This document shows, in pieces, positions 47,134 through 54,251 of a stretch of 64,000 nucleotides of DNA. The DNA comes from Fontimonas thermophila (GTDB lineage Bacteria; Pseudomonadota; Gammaproteobacteria; Nevskiales; Nevskiaceae). Each line of letters begins with the position of its first letter. Within the stretch, counting starts at the first letter, position 1. The stretch spans positions 124,001 through 188,000 of the forward strand of contig NZ_FOOC01000003.1 in assembly GCF_900113085.1 (NCBI RefSeq), written 5' to 3'. A program made the translations under genes and the position numbers. The notes under the pieces were generated by a model, which had not been told where the DNA came from, ran no database searches, and saw only the letters and a program-made list of their open reading frames with translations.

Positions 47134-47280
47134 CTACGACACCCCCTGGTAACCGAGCCAGGCCGCCAGCAGTGGTACGAGCAGCCAAAGCAAGCCCTTG
47201 ATCAGAAAGAACCAGAAGCCGAGCTGGGCGAACCGCGCCCAGCGCCGGTGCGGTGGGTCGCGGACCAGTGATCGTTTCAT
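47134..47280 (-). CDS. 48-residue membrane microprotein coupled to hugZ
   Basis: Read directly from the minus strand: MKRSLVRDPPHRRWARFAQL, then a hydrophobic stretch GFWFFLIKGLLWLLVPLLAA, then WLGYQGVS and a TAG stop. That is a basic N-terminus, one membrane helix of about 22 residues and a short tail. Its ATG overlaps the hugZ stop by four bases (ATGA), the same coupling used by every gene pair upstream in the operon, which argues strongly that it is translated. I know no name for it. It is the last gene of the heme operon, and the Fur-box-like site follows about 80 bases downstream. Confidence 0.75.
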   Translation of the reverse strand: MKRSLVRDPPHRRWARFAQLGFWFFLIKGLLWLLVPLLAAWLGYQGVS

Positions 47281-48029
47281 GCCGCGACGGCCCGTGCGCG
47301 GCGCACCAGCGCGACCATCGCCGCGCGCACATCGGCCACGGTGCTGACCGGGATATCGAAATCGATGCGCAGCAGGCGTTTGCCGAGCATGAGATCAAAG
47401 CCCTCGCCATCGATCGCGGACAGCCGCGGAACGGCTTCCCCTGGCTCGATGCCGTGCAGACGGCAGTAATCGCGCAGCGCATCGACGTGGTCGCCGTTCA
47501 TGTGCGCAATCATCCCCGCTTCTTCCTGAGCCGTGAACGGGTGGGTGCGGCGGATCATCTCCGCGCTGACCCAGTGGATTCTGCCGAAGCCACCGATGTA
47601 GCGGGCCTTGACCGGCTCGATGCGGTAGAACGCGAAGTCGTGCGCGCGCTGGTAGTCCACGGCGTGCGGGAAGCGCCGGTAATAGCGTTCGGCCACATCG
47701 TCGATATCGGTCTCGACGCGGGATGCATCGCCGACCAAGGTCAGGCGACCGCTGGCCTGGATGTCGTCGCTCCCCTCGATCAGGGTCAGCGAGACGCGTG
47801 CATCGGCCTTGATGTTCTTTGTGTGCTGGGCGAGATCGCTGATCAGCATCACCGGTCGATTGTTCCGATCGGGGACGAAAGTGACGACCGAGCCGAACGG
47901 ATAGCCGGGGAGCTCCAGCGACAGCGTCGAAAGAATGCCCTGGGCGCTGCGTGCGTAGAGCGCGCGGGCCTCGCGGGCGATGTCGGCATGGCTGTTCATG
48001 GCGGCAGTGGATGATGGTGTTGGGATCAT
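47277..48029 (-). CDS. hugZ: HugZ-like heme-utilisation protein
   Basis: A 250-residue split-barrel (PNPOx-fold) protein of the HugZ group, which binds and degrades heme in Campylobacter and Helicobacter. It shows RSAQGILSTLSLELPGYPFG, GSVVTFVPD, GDASRVETD, YIGGFGRIHWV and a C-terminal DUF2470-like domain (MIAHMNGDHVDALRDYCR). The ATG at 48029 overlaps the stop of the HmuY-like gene (ATGA) and is favoured by coupling; an internal ATG at 47999 (MNSHADIAREAR) matches the usual family N-terminus and is a real alternative. It would release iron from heme brought in by the receptor encoded upstream. Confidence 0.88.
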   Translation of the reverse strand: MIPTPSSTAAMNSHADIAREARALYARSAQGILSTLSLELPGYPFGSVVTFVPDRNNRPVMLISDLAQHTKNIKADARVSLTLIEGSDDIQASGRLTLVGDASRVETDIDDVAERYYRRFPHAVDYQRAHDFAFYRIEPVKARYIGGFGRIHWVSAEMIRRTHPFTAQEEAGMIAHMNGDHVDALRDYCRLHGIEPGEAVPRLSAIDGEGFDLMLGKRLLRIDFDIPVSTVADVRAAMVALVRRARAVAA

Positions 48030-49360
48030 GGTGGGGGCAGGGCGGCGAACTCGAACGAGGGATGGCCCGACTCGCCGGCATCACCGTAGTAGTCGAGCAT
48101 GCGCAGTTTCCAGTAGTGGCCATCGCGGCCGCGGACCACATAGACGACATCGCGCGGCGAGATGTGATGCATGCCGTTCCCCTTGTCGCAGAAGCCGGAG
48201 TAGTAATACCAGCCGTAGTCGCCATCGGCGCCGAAGGCGCATTCGCCGCCGCGTTCGCGCGGCGGGTAGGTGACGAAGGCGAGCGCGCCGTCTGCGTCGC
48301 TGTGCCACTGCGCGTCGGCGGGCACCGCAGTGCGCGCCGACCAGTCGTCGCGCAGCAGATCGTGGATGGCGACGATGCCGGCGCCGGAGCTGCCGCCATT
48401 GAGCTTGATGTCGGTGCGCCGGATCGCGAGGTCCCAGCCGGCGGCATCGCGCGCCGGTGCGTTCGGCGCCACCTGCTGCGCGTGACTCAGATCCAGATAG
48501 ACCCAGGCGTTCTCGTCGGCGGCATCGACGTCGGCGCGCATGCCGCCGGCGGTCGGTGTGAAAACGGCGCGGCCCAGCGGCGCGACTGCGCCGCCGACGT
48601 CGCTGCAGGGGCTGCCGTCGATTTCGAGGAAGTCGTACTGCGGATGCGCGGAGGCACCGGTGGCGTCGTAGTAGCCGGTCATGCGCAGCTTGTAGTAGCG
48701 GCATTCGACGGTGCGCAGCACATAGCCGACGTTGGCGCGCGCGCTGATCGCCGAGCCGGCGAGATAGCCGCTGTAGCGGTACCAGCCGTAGTCGCCGGCA
48801 CCGGTGAGGGGATCGGGATCGGCGTCGGCCTGCGGATGCGTGCTCATCGCATAGGCCGTCGTGTCGAGCGGATCGGATGGGTTGCCGCCGACGCTGCCTT
48901 CGGCGTCGGTGACGTATTCGACCTCGCCGGGCGGTGGCGCCGCGTCGATGCTCGCGAACGGGTAGCTTTCGCCCGCAGCGACCTTGTGCGCGTACACGGC
49001 CGCGTCGATGCCGCCGGGCGGCGCACCGGAAACGCCGCCGTTGAGTTTGATGTCGACACCGCGGTGGGCGAGGTCCCAGGCATCGCTCGCCGCCGGGTCC
49101 GGCGGGAACACCTGCGTCTGCGTGTCGAGGTCGATGTAGACCCAGTCGTCGCCGCTGGCATCGACCGCGGCCTGGTAATGGCCGTCGGCATGCTGCGTGA
49201 AGACCGCCTGCGTGCCGCCGGGACCGGGCAGCTCCGTTCCGGGCTGCGTGCCGGGATCGTCAGCGTCGGGATTCGGCGAGATGTCGCCGGCACAGGCGGC
49301 GAGCGCCAGGGCGGCGGATGCGCAGCATGCGCGCCAGCGGCCAGTCGTGAGCGTGCTCAT
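48026..49360 (-). CDS. Lipoprotein with two HmuY-like domains
   Basis: A 444-residue lipoprotein: lipobox LAAC with Cys23, a short Pro/Asp-rich linker, then two tandem HmuY-like repeats. Repeat one contains WVYIDLDTQTQVFPP and WDLAHRGVDIKLNGG; repeat two contains WVYLDLSHAQQVAPN and WDLAIRRTDIKLNGG. Each ends with a matching YGWYRYSGY / YGWYYYSGF and KLRMTGYYD / KLRMLDYYG segment. HmuY proteins are surface hemophores in Bacteroidetes; a protein with two copies in a gammaproteobacterium could hold two hemes. Start at 49360 overlaps the receptor stop (ATGA), and the stop overlaps hugZ. Confidence 0.85.
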   Translation of the reverse strand: MSTLTTGRWRACCASAALALAACAGDISPNPDADDPGTQPGTELPGPGGTQAVFTQHADGHYQAAVDASGDDWVYIDLDTQTQVFPPDPAASDAWDLAHRGVDIKLNGGVSGAPPGGIDAAVYAHKVAAGESYPFASIDAAPPPGEVEYVTDAEGSVGGNPSDPLDTTAYAMSTHPQADADPDPLTGAGDYGWYRYSGYLAGSAISARANVGYVLRTVECRYYKLRMTGYYDATGASAHPQYDFLEIDGSPCSDVGGAVAPLGRAVFTPTAGGMRADVDAADENAWVYLDLSHAQQVAPNAPARDAAGWDLAIRRTDIKLNGGSSGAGIVAIHDLLRDDWSARTAVPADAQWHSDADGALAFVTYPPRERGGECAFGADGDYGWYYYSGFCDKGNGMHHISPRDVVYVVRGRDGHYWKLRMLDYYGDAGESGHPSFEFAALPPP

Positions 49361-51573
49361 TCGAAGCTCCATCGCAGTTCCAGGGAGACCGATCGCGGCT
49401 GGATCGGCAGGTACGCGGGATCGCCCGCATCGAAGAGGTTGTCGATGCCCAGCGCGAGCGCGCAGCACCGCCAGCGCGTCCACTCGGCGCGCGCATCGAA
49501 CAGCGCGTAGGCGCTCGCGCGGCCGGCCGCAATCGGCGCGCCGCCGGTATCGACGTCGAGCCCGAACACGCGCTCACCGATCCACACCCCGCGCAGGCCC
49601 AGCGCGTAGTCGGGCTGCTCGAAGCGCAGCGCAGCGTTGGCGCGGTGCTCGGGCCGTCCGCTCAGCGGCCGGCCGCTCGCCTCGTCCTCGCTGTGCAGCC
49701 AGCCATAGCCGAGCCGCAGCTCCAGCGGCGACCATGGCCGCAGCTGCAGCTGCAGCTGCAGATCGGCGCCGTAGAGCCGCGCCGAAGCGACGTTGCGGTA
49801 GCTGTAGACGATCGGCGGACCGTTCTGGACCTGCACGATCTCGATCAGATCTTCGACGGCGCTGTGATGCGCGCTCAGCGCGAGGCTGGCGTCGCGGCGC
49901 GCAAACCAGGTGAGGCCGAGGTTGTAGGCGACGCTGCGCTCGGGCTCGAGCGCGGGATTGCCATCGACGCGATAGCCGATCGCTGGATTGTCGAAGCGCA
50001 GCAGCAGCTGCTTGAAATCGGGCGCGCGATAGCCGTGGCCGTAACCGGCGCGCAGGATCCAGTCGCGCGCAAGCTCGTAGCGCAGCGACAGCTTTGGCGA
50101 CAGCTGCTCGCCGAACTGAGAATCGCGGTCGTAGCGCGCGCCGGCGACGAGCGCGAGCGCGCCGTCGCGCAGCGCGAGTTCGTCCTGAGCGAACACGGAC
50201 TGGCGGTCGCGTTCGCCGGTCGTACCGAGGCGGTCGGCCTCCAGCGTCTCAAGCTGCGCCTCGGCGCCGAGCGTGACGCGGTGCAGGCCGATGCGATGGT
50301 CGAGTTGCGCCGCGCCGCTCCAGAGTTCATCCAGCGTCTCCTCGTCGATCGCCTCGCCGCCGCCGCGCGGCTGCTGCAGGTACTGGTCGAAGTAGCGGTT
50401 GAAATAGCCGTCCAGCCGCAGCTCGGTGGCGCCGCCGAGGGCGATGCGTGGCGCGATGCCGGCGCGCACTTCCTCGATGCGCTTGCGGGTGTCGTGGACC
50501 GCGCCGCCGGTACCGTCATCGACGCGGCGGCTGTCGTCGAGCGCGTAGGCGAGGTCCGCGTCGAGATCGAATTCGGCGTGCGGGCTCCAGCGCGCCGTGC
50601 CCTGAGCGGAGCGGCTGTCGCCGGCGATGCCGTCGCGGCCGGCGGTGGCCGGGTCGAGGTCGTAGGGCTCGGTATGCAGGACGCCGCCGCCGATGCGTCC
50701 GCCCAGGCGCTCGCCCAGCGCCCAGCCGGCGTTGCCGAAGAGCTCGGCATTGGCTTCGTCGTCCGCGCGCAGCGTCAGCGCGCCGGCCTCGCCACCGCGC
50801 CGGCGCGTGATCAGGTTGATCACGCCGCCGAGGGCATCGGCGCCGTAGAGCGCGGACGAGGGCCCGCGCACGATCTCGATGCGCTCGATGCCGTCCAGGC
50901 GCAGGCGCGTCAGGTCGATGGCGCCGTTGATGCGGCCGATCATGCGCCGCCCGTCGATGAGGACCAGCACGTGCTCGGAGGCCAGCCCCTGGATCTCGAT
51001 GCGCGTGCCGCGCCCGGCCAAGCGCGAGGCATGGATGCCGCCTTCGCGTTCGAGCAGTTCGGCGAGATCGCGTGCACCGCTGTTGCGGATGTCGGCCGCG
51101 GTGATCAACTGCACATCGACCGGCGCGTCGGACAGGCGATGGGCAGTGCGCGTGCCGGTGACGACGATCGTGTCGAGCGCAGTCAAGGGTTGCGCGTTCT
51201 CGGCGCCGGCCGCGCGCAGCGGCTCGACCGCGATCGTCGCGACGTCCTCCTGCGCCCGCGCCGAACCCCACCACAGGCCGGCGGCGAGGATCGACACCGA
51301 GGTGATCGTCCACAGCGGGCGGCGCAGCCGATCGTGCTGCCGCGTCGCGGCCGCCAGGCCCGCGGCACCGGCGCAGGCGGCCGCGTGCAGCAGCCAGCGA
51401 GCGAAGGCGGCGCCGCTGCCGTGGCTCTCGATCCAGACCAGCAGCGCCGCGGCGGCGAGGGGTGCGCTGAGCAGGCGCCACTCCAGCGCCTCGTCGGCGC
51501 GCCGACGTCGGTCCGGCGGCGTCAGCCAGCAGGCGGTGGCGGCCAGCATCAGCAGGCTGGCGAACAAATCCAT
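49357..51573 (-). CDS. TonB-dependent heme/iron receptor with N-terminal membrane extension
   Basis: A 738-residue outer-membrane receptor. The plug domain begins near TIVVTGTRTAHRLSDAPVDV and contains RIEIVRGPSSALYGADALGG with VINLITRR; the barrel includes LSPKLSLRYELARDWILRAG, YGHGYRAPDFKQLLLRF, and ends VSLELRWSFE. Unusually, about 85 residues precede the apparent signal region: three hydrophobic segments (residues 1-17, 33-47, 57-76) around an arginine-rich loop, then LRRPLWTITSVSILAAGLWW and GSARAQ as a signal-like helix. No usable start codon lies just before that helix, so the extension seems truly fused. The gene heads the heme operon, and a Fur-box-like site lies 74 bases upstream. 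Confidence 0.88.
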   Translation of the reverse strand: MDLFASLLMLAATACWLTPPDRRRRADEALEWRLLSAPLAAAALLVWIESHGSGAAFARWLLHAAACAGAAGLAAATRQHDRLRRPLWTITSVSILAAGLWWGSARAQEDVATIAVEPLRAAGAENAQPLTALDTIVVTGTRTAHRLSDAPVDVQLITAADIRNSGARDLAELLEREGGIHASRLAGRGTRIEIQGLASEHVLVLIDGRRMIGRINGAIDLTRLRLDGIERIEIVRGPSSALYGADALGGVINLITRRRGGEAGALTLRADDEANAELFGNAGWALGERLGGRIGGGVLHTEPYDLDPATAGRDGIAGDSRSAQGTARWSPHAEFDLDADLAYALDDSRRVDDGTGGAVHDTRKRIEEVRAGIAPRIALGGATELRLDGYFNRYFDQYLQQPRGGGEAIDEETLDELWSGAAQLDHRIGLHRVTLGAEAQLETLEADRLGTTGERDRQSVFAQDELALRDGALALVAGARYDRDSQFGEQLSPKLSLRYELARDWILRAGYGHGYRAPDFKQLLLRFDNPAIGYRVDGNPALEPERSVAYNLGLTWFARRDASLALSAHHSAVEDLIEIVQVQNGPPIVYSYRNVASARLYGADLQLQLQLRPWSPLELRLGYGWLHSEDEASGRPLSGRPEHRANAALRFEQPDYALGLRGVWIGERVFGLDVDTGGAPIAAGRASAYALFDARAEWTRWRCCALALGIDNLFDAGDPAYLPIQPRSVSLELRWSFE

Positions 51574-51646
51574 GCGCGAAAGTCCCCAAGATCAGCAACA
51601 GCCGAAGGCCTGGGCCTCGCAGCGGGCGCCGCGAACCTGGGGGTGA

Positions 51647-51663
51647 CGAATGATAACCATTCG
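51647..51663. promoter_or_regulatory. Fur-box-like palindrome between receptor and PNPOx gene
   Basis: CGAATGATAACCATTCG, a perfect 6-base inverted repeat with a 5-base centre, close to the Fur pattern (AATGATAA / CATT). It lies in the 164-base gap between the receptor (start 51573, minus) and the PNPOx-fold gene (start 51738, plus), so it could control both directions. Confidence 0.7.
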
Positions 51664-51737
51664 CAACAGAGCCGGCAATGCCGCTGCTGCGACCGGCGCC
51701 GATGGTCGGCGCGTGCGCCCGCGCATTACGATGCGCC

Positions 51738-52229
51738 ATGCCCGATTCCTCTTCCGTCCTCATCGACGCGGATACCGCGCGCTTCCTGCTCAGCGGCCTG
51801 TCGATCGGCGTTGCCGCGCGCGACGCAGCGGGGCGGCCGTCGATTGCCCGTGCCTGCGGCCTGCGTCTGCCGCCGGACCGCTCGAGCCTGCGCGTGCTGG
51901 TTGTGCGCGACCAGGCGCTGGATCTGCTCGCCGACGTCGAGGCGCTCGGCATGGCCGCCGCGGTGTTCTCGGAGGTGAGCAGCCATCGCACGCTGCAGAT
52001 CAAGTCGACGCAGACCCGCGTCGAGCCGGCGGACGGCGACGATCTGGCGGCGCTCGACGCCCAGGTCGAGCGCTTCGCCGCGACGCTCGATGCGATCGGT
52101 CATGCGCCGGAATTCACTGCCGCGCTGCTCGGCCAGCGCGGCCAGGCGATCGCCGCGATCGTGATGCGCCCGGAGCAGGTGTATTCGCAGACGCCCGGCC
52201 CCGGTGCCGGCGCCAGGCTCAAGGGCTGA
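51738..52229 (+). CDS. PNPOx-fold (split-barrel) protein divergent from the heme receptor
   Basis: A 163-residue protein of the pyridoxamine-phosphate-oxidase-like split-barrel superfamily: LSIGVAARDAAGRPSIARAC and VFSEVSSHRTLQIKSTQTRV are typical strands. It has no identifiable cofactor motif, so FMN, heme or F420 binding cannot be told apart. The ATG at 51738 (MPDSSSVLIDADT) was chosen; an upstream ATG at 51678 is possible. It is followed at once by a second split-barrel gene (2 bases after its stop), and shares a Fur-box-like site with the receptor. Confidence 0.78.
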   Translation: MPDSSSVLIDADTARFLLSGLSIGVAARDAAGRPSIARACGLRLPPDRSSLRVLVVRDQALDLLADVEALGMAAAVFSEVSSHRTLQIKSTQTRVEPADGDDLAALDAQVERFAATLDAIGHAPEFTAALLGQRGQAIAAIVMRPEQVYSQTPGPGAGARLKG

Positions 52230-52231
52230 CG

Positions 52232-53569
52232 ATGCATCTCAGCGTGGACGATATCCGCGCCTGCCTGGACGGCGGCGTGCCGTCGTTGCTGGCGACCTGT
52301 TCGGCCGACGGCGTGCCCAACGTCACCTACGTGTCGCAGCTGCACCGCGTCGATGCGATGCACGTCGCCGCCTCATTCCAGTTCTTTAACAAGACGCGCG
52401 AGAACATCCTCGCCAATCCCAGCGCCGTCGCCGAAGTGATCGATCCGCGCACCGCCGCGCGCTACCGGCTGCAGCTGCGCTACCGCCACACGGAGTCGGC
52501 CGGTCCGCTGTTCGAGAGCATGAAGGCCAAGCTCTCCGGCATCGCCGCGCTGACCGGCATGAGCGGCATTTTCAAGCTGCAGGGCGCCGACGTTTACGAA
52601 GTGCTCGCGATCACCGCCGTGCCCAATCCGGCCTTGCCGCGACCCCCCGGCGGCAATCTGCTGCCGGGCCTGCGCCGCGTCAGCGAGCGGCTCGCCGCGC
52701 AGACGCGCATGGACGCGCTGTTCGACACGCTGCTGCAGGAGCTGGAAGCCGCGCTCGGCATCGGCCACGCGATGCTGCTGCTGTGCGAGGCCGGCGCGCG
52801 CAAGCTGTACACGGTGGCGACGCGCGGCTATCCCAGCTCCGGCGTCGGTGCCGAAGTGCCGTTCGGTGCCGGCGTCATCGGCATCTGCGCCGAGCAGCGC
52901 GCGCCGATTCGCATCGCCTACATGACGGCCGAGTACGCCTACGGACGCGCGCTGCGCGAGTCGGCGCTGGCGCACGGCATGCTCGAATCTCTGGAGACGC
53001 AGATCCCGTTTCCCGGCATGCCGGCGCCGCACAGCCAGCTCGCCGTGCCGGTGATCGGCGGCGGTGAGCTGTTCGGCGTGCTCTACGCGGAGAGCGCGCA
53101 GGACCGGCGCTTCGGCTACGACGAGGAAGACGCGCTGGTCGCGCTGGCGGCCCAGCTCGCCGGCCTGCTGCGGGCGCTGCGCGAGGCGGCCGACGACGAT
53201 GCCGCCGTTCCCACCGCTGCGGCGGTGCCGCCGCAGGCCGGGCGTCCTGCGCTCGTCGTGCGTCACTACCGCGCCGACCACAGCGTCTTCTTCGACGACG
53301 CCTATCTGATCAAGGGCGTGGCCGGCGCCATCCTGTGGAAGCTGCTCGGCGCCCATGCCGCCGACGGGCGCGTCGAGTTCAGCAACCGCGAGCTGCGCCT
53401 CGACGCCTCGCTCAAGCTGCCGGAGATCGTCGACAACCTGGAGGCGCGCCTGATCCTGCTGCGCAAGCGCCTGGCCGAGCGCTGCGGCCACATCGGCATC
53501 GAGCCGACCGGCCGCGGCCGCTTCCGCTTGCGCGTCGAGCGGCCGCTGCAGCTCGAAGAGTTCGACTGA
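52232..53569 (+). CDS. PNPOx-GAF-winged-helix-like fusion protein
   Basis: A 445-residue fusion. Residues 1-140 are a split barrel (SLLATCSADGVPNVTYVSQL, VSQLHRVDAMHVAASFQFFN, RYRLQLRYRH). Residues about 155-320 form a GAF domain (RMDALFDTLLQELEAALGIG; LAVPVIGGGELFGVLYAESA). After a Pro/Ala linker the last 80 residues (VEFSNRELRLDASLKLPEIV; ARLILLRKRLAERCGHIGIE) look like a winged-helix output of the OmpR C-terminal type, but this is a resemblance only. It may sense a redox or gas ligand and control neighbouring genes. It starts 2 bases after the previous split-barrel gene and is convergent with the hemerythrin gene. Confidence 0.8.
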   Translation: MHLSVDDIRACLDGGVPSLLATCSADGVPNVTYVSQLHRVDAMHVAASFQFFNKTRENILANPSAVAEVIDPRTAARYRLQLRYRHTESAGPLFESMKAKLSGIAALTGMSGIFKLQGADVYEVLAITAVPNPALPRPPGGNLLPGLRRVSERLAAQTRMDALFDTLLQELEAALGIGHAMLLLCEAGARKLYTVATRGYPSSGVGAEVPFGAGVIGICAEQRAPIRIAYMTAEYAYGRALRESALAHGMLESLETQIPFPGMPAPHSQLAVPVIGGGELFGVLYAESAQDRRFGYDEEDALVALAAQLAGLLRALREAADDDAAVPTAAAVPPQAGRPALVVRHYRADHSVFFDDAYLIKGVAGAILWKLLGAHAADGRVEFSNRELRLDASLKLPEIVDNLEARLILLRKRLAERCGHIGIEPTGRGRFRLRVERPLQLEEFD

Positions 53570-53579
53570 GCGCGGCGCT

Positions 53580-54251
53580 TCAGGCGAAGGCGGCGCGCAG
53601 GCGGCTGCGATCGGCGTCCGCCAGGCGCGGCAGCAGCATCGACAGCAGGCCGTCGAACGCCTCGCGCGGCGCTACCGCGCGGATATGGCCGAGCAGCGCC
53701 TCGCGCTCCGGCGCGCTGATCGCCGGCACCATCAGGCCGAGGATGCGCGCGTGTTCGTCCGGCGGGATCGAGGCCACCAGCAGCTGCTCGATCTCGTGGA
53801 TCTCGGTATCGCTGTAGCACTCCCACAGCACGGCGTTGTTGTAGGACTCCTCGACCAGCATGTGCTCGAAGTTCTCGGCGACGAAGGCGCTGAACTGGTG
53901 ATACAGCGCTTCGAGGCGCGACTCGCGGCAGCCCGCCTCCGCGGCGCGCACGCGCTCGATCTCGCGGCGCAGCGCGGCGATCCCCTCGACGTGATGCAGG
54001 TGGTCGGACGCGGTCTTGTGCGACGAGCCCGGGCGGCGTGCCTCCATCGCCGCGTGCATGAAGCGGTCCTCGTGCTTGAGGTGCGAGGCGCACAGATCGA
54101 GCAGCCCCTCGAGCTGCGCGAGCGTGCCGCGCAGCTGGGTTTCGTCGGCAGGATCGCTGCGGCCCAGCGCGGTCAGCGTCTCGGCCATGTGCGCGCGCAG
54201 CGCGCGGTGGATCTTGCTGTAAACGTTGTAGCGGGGAGAACATTCGCTCAT
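53580..54251 (-). CDS. Hemerythrin-like di-iron protein
   Basis: A 223-residue helical protein with hemerythrin-type metal ligands: HLKHEDRFMHAAME, then DHLHHVEGI, then ENFEHMLVEES. The family binds two irons and handles O2 or NO, or stores iron. The ATG at 54251 (MSECSPRYNVYSKIHRALRA) is supported by the fact that the long upstream continuation of the frame is an antisense shadow of msrA and the DUF4331 gene. It lies 10 bases from the stop of the PNPOx-GAF gene and is divergent from msrA (168-base gap). Confidence 0.82.
   Translation of the reverse strand: MSECSPRYNVYSKIHRALRAHMAETLTALGRSDPADETQLRGTLAQLEGLLDLCASHLKHEDRFMHAAMEARRPGSSHKTASDHLHHVEGIAALRREIERVRAAEAGCRESRLEALYHQFSAFVAENFEHMLVEESYNNAVLWECYSDTEIHEIEQLLVASIPPDEHARILGLMVPAISAPEREALLGHIRAVAPREAFDGLLSMLLPRLADADRSRLRAAFA

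Follow-up and report, generated by a model that had tools for sequence, protein, structure and literature searches.

We analyzed a 64-kb stretch of the Fontimonas thermophila genome (NZ_FOOC01000003.1, 124,001–188,000), referred to here as the window, and all positions follow its numbering. Two forward-strand genes, P0001 and P0002, run divergently from a TonB receptor gene that belongs to a set of heme-uptake genes, and they converge on a gene for a hemerythrin-like protein, P0003. The features of the locus are as follows:

47277–48029, minus strand: HugZ-like protein (open reading frame)
48026–49483, minus strand: HmuY-like protein, adjoining the receptor (open reading frame and Pfam)
49357–51573, minus strand: TonB receptor, divergent from P0001 (open reading frame and Pfam)
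51646–51664, no strand assigned: Fur-like site between the receptor and P0001 (13/19 matches to a Fur consensus)
51727–51732, plus strand: TACGAT, putative −10 element 5 nt upstream of the P0001 start codon (candidate leaderless-type promoter)
51738–52229, plus strand: P0001, predicted stand-alone split-barrel protein, 163 aa (profiles, predicted structure, alignment)
52232–53569, plus strand: P0002, 445 aa, PNPOx split barrel, GAF and predicted winged-helix-like C-terminal domain (Pfam, alignment, AlphaFold2)
52253–52522, plus strand: PNPOx_N match in P0002, residues 8–97 (Pfam)
52703–53164, plus strand: GAF domain of P0002, residues 158–311 (Pfam, structure search)
53243–53566, plus strand: C-terminal domain of P0002, residues 338–445 (predicted as three strands, helix, strand, two helices and a hairpin)
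53580–54251, minus strand: P0003, hemerythrin-like protein, 223 aa, convergent with P0002 (Pfam, alignment, co-occurrence)

Domain composition of P0001 and P0002

A Pfam scan of P0001 returned no match, and a profile scan of the family alignment recovered PNPOx_N at E ≤ 0.01 in 7 of 56 members (best, 2.6e-4). The AlphaFold2 model of P0001 has a mean pLDDT of 93.8, and a Foldseek search of the PDB placed HupZ first (1.1e-7), with Rv1155 and further PNPOx-like proteins next in rank. Structure comparison with VIA gave a Z score of 13.0 against HupZ (rmsd 3.0 over 123 residues), 10.1 against HugZ, and 9.3 against HutZ. On the basis of these Foldseek and VIA matches, P0001 is confirmed, as a prediction, to be a stand-alone split barrel, which bears out the first-pass annotation of such a protein beside the receptor. 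The likeness to the heme-binding split barrels HupZ, HutZ, and HugZ is one of fold, whereas sequence identity to P0001 in the structure alignments is just 14–17%. The hallmarks of the HugZ heme oxygenase are a DUF2470 (HugZ) domain and a conserved heme-binding His. Unlike HugZ and HutZ, neither P0001 nor P0002 matches DUF2470, and no His is conserved in ≥85% of the rows of either family alignment. In P0001, Q87, K89, P153, G154, A157, and G158 are identical in 74/74 aligned rows; every residue of Q87, K89, and the C-terminal QTPGPxAG is retained in 72–74 of the 74.

In P0002, Pfam identified the GAF domain (1.9e-12) and a PNPOx_N match (1.8e-5) that, at 25.6 bits, lies just below the curated cut-off of 28.1. 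Each family matched 62/62 members of the P0002 alignment, P0002 itself counted, at E ≤ 1, with best values of 2.7e-17 for GAF and 7.7e-12 for PNPOx_N. The barrels of P0001 and P0002 share hardly any sequence likeness: aligning the two family profiles matched only 29 columns (probability 4.9%, p 0.008), so a shared origin of the two barrels rests on fold. The AlphaFold2 model of P0002 (overall pLDDT 86.6) has a GAF fold for which the nearest VIA match is PtsP (3trc; Z 21.4, rmsd 2.3, 163 residues), with 3mmh, the free Met-R-sulfoxide reductase, also retrieved (Z 21.0). PtsP/NifA-type GAF sensors are the nearest relatives of this domain by both sequence and fold, but P0002 falls far below their family cut-offs and has different N- and C-terminal domains. 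Free Met-R-sulfoxide reductase carries its catalytic Cys in the GAF domain; the GAF region of P0002, by contrast, has no Cys column conserved at ≥60% among the 62 aligned proteins, and no His or Cys is invariant anywhere in that alignment.

The C-terminal domain of P0002 is the candidate output domain. DSSP assignment of the AlphaFold2 model (pLDDT 73–94 per block across residues 341–445) gives the order E-E-E-H-E-H-H-E-E for residues 341–435. Winged-helix regulators of the OmpR/PhoB type (Trans_reg_C) are built from N-terminal strands, α1, a strand, α2, α3, and a C-terminal hairpin. By AlphaFold2 secondary structure, the predicted element order of residues 338–445 is that of the OmpR/PhoB winged helix. 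Unlike OmpR and PhoB, P0002 has no receiver domain and no Pfam or significant profile match to this class. PF00486 was absent from the families matched at E ≤ 1 by any of the 62 family members, and none of four matches to PDB profiles (E 0.78–2) was a DNA-binding protein. Alignment to an OmpR profile using hhalign gave a p of 0.19 over 26–35 columns (query Neff 2.6), with a MarR control at 0.3. VIA matches to the whole P0002 model likewise included no winged helix, in a search that barely covered this part of the protein. Of the architecture read by the first-pass annotation, the second barrel and the GAF domain are borne out, and the winged-helix-like end is a prediction from topology. Within this domain, R386, R389, N402, R406, R413, R428, and G429 are retained in 78–80 of 81 aligned rows (the alignment omits L187, where P0002 is annotated in pieces), and K/R residues number 19 vs 16 D/E. 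The conserved Arg pattern is compatible with nucleic-acid binding, which it does not prove.

Pairing, distribution, and gene neighborhoods

In the window, P0001 ends 2 bp before the start of P0002 on the same strand, and this operon layout recurs across the family. We assembled 89 loci from 73 related loci, 14 longer genome stretches, three plasmid loci, and the window, after dropping L016 (the same place as L092) and L088 (a partial match with no P0002 by HMM); some are close relatives. Gene order is conserved. All but one of these loci (L043) have P0001 together with P0002, giving 88; according to the gene caller, P0001 lies directly upstream in 84, overlapping P0002 by 4 bp in 70 of them. 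The P0001 profile also matched 18/18 further loci, of which 16 are new places (L091 is counted in the 89 already, and L169 and L181 denote one place).

The pair is uncommon and patchily distributed. Of 61 related genomes, 15 carry P0001 and P0002, always together, and a sample of 274 genomes from the class has P0002 in 7, Fontimonas thermophila being included in both counts. Among 299 genomes drawn from the phylum, the P0002 C-terminal domain was found in 7 at E ≤ 1e-33, plus one borderline match; in six of the seven (all but Fontimonas thermophila), the locus also has the remainder of P0002 and P0001. P0002 is further present on 20 plasmid records, large plasmids among them. Titles of the hosts with the pair indicate alpha-, beta-, and gammaproteobacteria. 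Existing annotations describe such pairs as a "pyridoxamine 5'-phosphate oxidase family" or "hypothetical" protein next to a "GAF domain-containing protein," and pairs labeled in this manner occur also on rhizobial and Azospirillum plasmids. Two P0002 loci carry titles from outside Pseudomonadota (L051 and L063; a Holophagaceae MAG and "Oceanobacillus sp. HTM 045"), which may reflect transfer, faulty binning, or mislabeling. At another locus (L170, G273:C9), the P0002 coding sequence spans two frames, perhaps through pseudogenization or misassembly.

As the first-pass annotation had noted, the split-barrel genes face a hemerythrin gene. P0003 matches PF01814 at 26.2 bits (cut-off, 25.3), and H15, H57, E61, H84, H87, H130, and E134 are invariant in 22/22 aligned proteins; by analogy with the family, these conserved residues are probably metal ligands. 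A hemerythrin domain with His/Glu ligands is shared with the di-iron repair proteins RIC/YtfE, but P0003 scores only 15.8 bits against TIGR03652, for which the cut-off is 204.7. P0003 is co-inherited with the pair: among the 61 related genomes, a homolog (E ≤ 1e-10) is present in 13 of 15 with the pair and 0 of 46 without it (Fisher p 1.6e-11, relatedness of genomes ignored). In all 13, P0003 shares a contig with P0002, at most ~8 kb away. Within the fetched stretches (~6 kb per side of the pair, some shorter), a P0003 homolog appears at 33/89 loci, at 29 of which it is downstream of and antiparallel to P0002 and at 20 the next gene. Because the other 56 loci have no homolog in the fetched stretch, P0003 cannot be the general target of the pair.

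Other redox-related genes also lie nearby. As a raw count, 69/89 fetched stretches contain a gene for a hemerythrin, a cytochrome c, or the HxH COX1-like protein. The COX1-like family comprises small membrane proteins (104–163 aa) that resemble one COX1 segment, score below the Pfam cut-off, and share an invariant HxHxN..GW; they occur at 24 loci (e.g., L017:5320–5688 and L026:7403–7819). They could be minimal heme proteins. Cytochrome c genes accompany the pair at 21 loci (CxxCH in 20), an E1 alpha/E1 beta TPP-dependent dehydrogenase pair at 18 (e.g., L082:7574–8530), an FAD oxidase at 9, and MsrA at 7; the remaining clusters reach at most 9 loci. Family scans covered 6 of the 70 unclassified +1/+2 neighbors, as well as two proteins of the E1 clusters. 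For the plasmids, nine of the 20 records were retrieved, and seven of these were annotated: catalase or catalase-like genes lie in three of the seven regions, cytochrome c genes in two, and the rest are mixed.

Upstream regions were inspected for promoters and operators. TANNNT occurs 4–12 nt ahead of the P0001 start at 17/83 loci, whereas a background taken from far upstream (0.31 hits per position, all 83 loci together) predicts ~3. This excess suggests that some members of the family transcribe the pair without a leader. A common operator sought in the P0001 and P0003 promoters of 31 loci did not emerge: the same-locus mean score was 10.35 vs 10.17 for 150 cross-locus control pairs, with scores of ≥14 in 6.5% of same-locus and 2% of cross-locus pairs. 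Likewise, no clear motif was found among dyads and direct repeats upstream of P0001 at 68 loci. The fifteen best of several thousand upstream words occurred at 4–15 of the 68 loci, the top z being 6.7 (a palindrome, at 5 loci), and several were G+C-rich.

Candidate functions of the pair

Given the near-unbroken, coupled pairing, we argue that P0001 and P0002 are two subunits of one machine. In our best reading, to which we give even credence, the pair is a one-component regulator that responds to redox and has an obligate split barrel as its partner. This reading is preferred because the barrel–GAF–winged-helix order reads as sensor, relay, and output and because the linked genes often encode metalloproteins that react with O2, NO, or redox agents. 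In the following scheme, we infer the assembly of a complex, its cofactor, its binding to DNA, and its target genes. P0001 and P0002 would be the two subunits of a cytosolic, one-component-type transcription regulator that responds either to redox state itself or to some small redox-active compound. P0001 would be the obligate partner barrel, and a single coupled message would supply both proteins. In P0002, the N-terminal barrel would pair with P0001 (or with itself) and bind a flavin-like or other redox cofactor, and the GAF domain would relay the state of the barrel or bind a second small ligand. The C-terminal winged helix would bind DNA and adjust the expression of redox metalloprotein genes, here P0003. 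PaiB-like FMN-binding regulators offer a case of a split barrel used in gene regulation. Counting against a regulator are the lack of a C-terminal sequence match to a winged helix, the failed operator searches, the scant likeness of the two barrels, and the frequent absence of P0003.

A more specific version of the regulator is possible, if doubtful. P0001, marked by the invariant QxK strand and the QTPGPxAG tail, might be a dedicated sensor subunit that pairs with the P0002 barrel and shares one cofactor with it. Through the GAF domain, the state of this cofactor might reach a winged helix that governs a hemerythrin and other metalloproteins reactive toward O2 or NO. The pair would then represent a new class of bacterial sensor, for redox state or a gas, built on two unlike split barrels. 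The parts of the module are of known kinds, and the portions of the literature searched contained no description of the combination or of its obligate partner barrel, in agreement with the earlier statement that no described system has this layout. If true, the redox-responsive regulator would enlarge the known repertoire of bacterial redox sensing by a family whose two-barrel input is unusual. It would also assign a testable role to pairs now labeled hypothetical or PNPOx-family plus GAF in alpha-, beta-, and gammaproteobacteria and provide a regulatory context for the P0003-type hemerythrin subfamily.

Instead of regulating transcription, the pair could be a flavin- or heme-dependent enzyme complex, a reductase or oxidase that supports redox metalloproteins, with the GAF and C-terminal domains serving regulation and assembly and binding no DNA. 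Among the fold neighbors of P0001 are enzymes and proteins that bind cofactors (Rv1155, Rv2074, HupZ, and NohD), the neighboring genes often encode electron-transfer or di-iron proteins, no DNA site was found, and the P0002 C-terminal domain has no sequence match to a DNA-binding family. We nonetheless consider an enzyme complex unlikely: P0002 has no invariant His or Cys, and its GAF domain and Arg-patterned C-terminal domain come with no recognized catalytic signature.

Nitric oxide, heme uptake, and the divergent receptor

The first-pass annotation read the pair as a sensor of heme, NO, or redox state with its own output domain. Sensor-like domains and a probable output domain are present, and redox state remains the best part of that guess; the links to denitrification and heme uptake did not hold. 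An NO sensor of denitrifying cells would fit the hemerythrin and COX1-like neighbors and the several host genera that include denitrifiers, but nirK/nirS genes above cut-off show no association with the module (3/15 genomes with it vs 6/46 without; Fisher p 0.68), and the Fontimonas thermophila genome contains neither. FNR-like boxes are absent near the pair in the window, and intergenic matches lie near just 3/89 loci. A link to denitrification was not seen, and an NO sensor is improbable.

The first-pass annotation further proposed a coupling to heme uptake through a Fur-like site shared with the divergent receptor. The site at 51646–51664 exists, is one of two as good (13/19) in the window, and reaches a score met or exceeded in ~0.4% of mononucleotide-shuffled 265-bp upstream stretches; it has no counterpart above 12/19 upstream of the other 82 pairs examined. 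Matches of 12/19 are in slight excess (9/83 pairs vs 2.4% of mononucleotide shuffles). The site is probably the receptor's own. Only in Fontimonas thermophila do the receptor, HmuY-like, and HugZ-like genes adjoin the pair. At one of the 14 related-genome stretches, congener G004, homologs of HugZ, HmuY, and the receptor occur in order ~5 kb off, with five genes between; this is the only receptor homolog (E ≤ 1e-5) in the fetched stretches of the other 88 loci. Congener G003 has no heme-uptake homologs across 220000–256000 of its contig (36 kb). As a general feature, the heme-uptake link was rejected, since neither the receptor neighborhood nor the Fur-like site is conserved and no His or Cys is invariant in P0002. 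A heme (or heme-iron) sensor controlling the divergent uptake genes, which the shared intergenic region, the 12/19 excess, the G004 locus, and the several heme-binding split-barrel relatives would favor, is highly improbable against these same observations.

The heme-uptake proteins of the window have features of their own. The TonB receptor reading frame has ~115 N-terminal residues ahead of the plug part, and residues 37–114 give a weak, sub-cut-off match to MerC (6.4e-4), as though the receptor had gained a small membrane protein by fusion. The HmuY-like protein has two HmuY stretches in a single chain. The Fontimonas thermophila genome itself is 2.73 Mb at 99.6% completeness, and those of ten congeners span 3.2–4.7 Mb.
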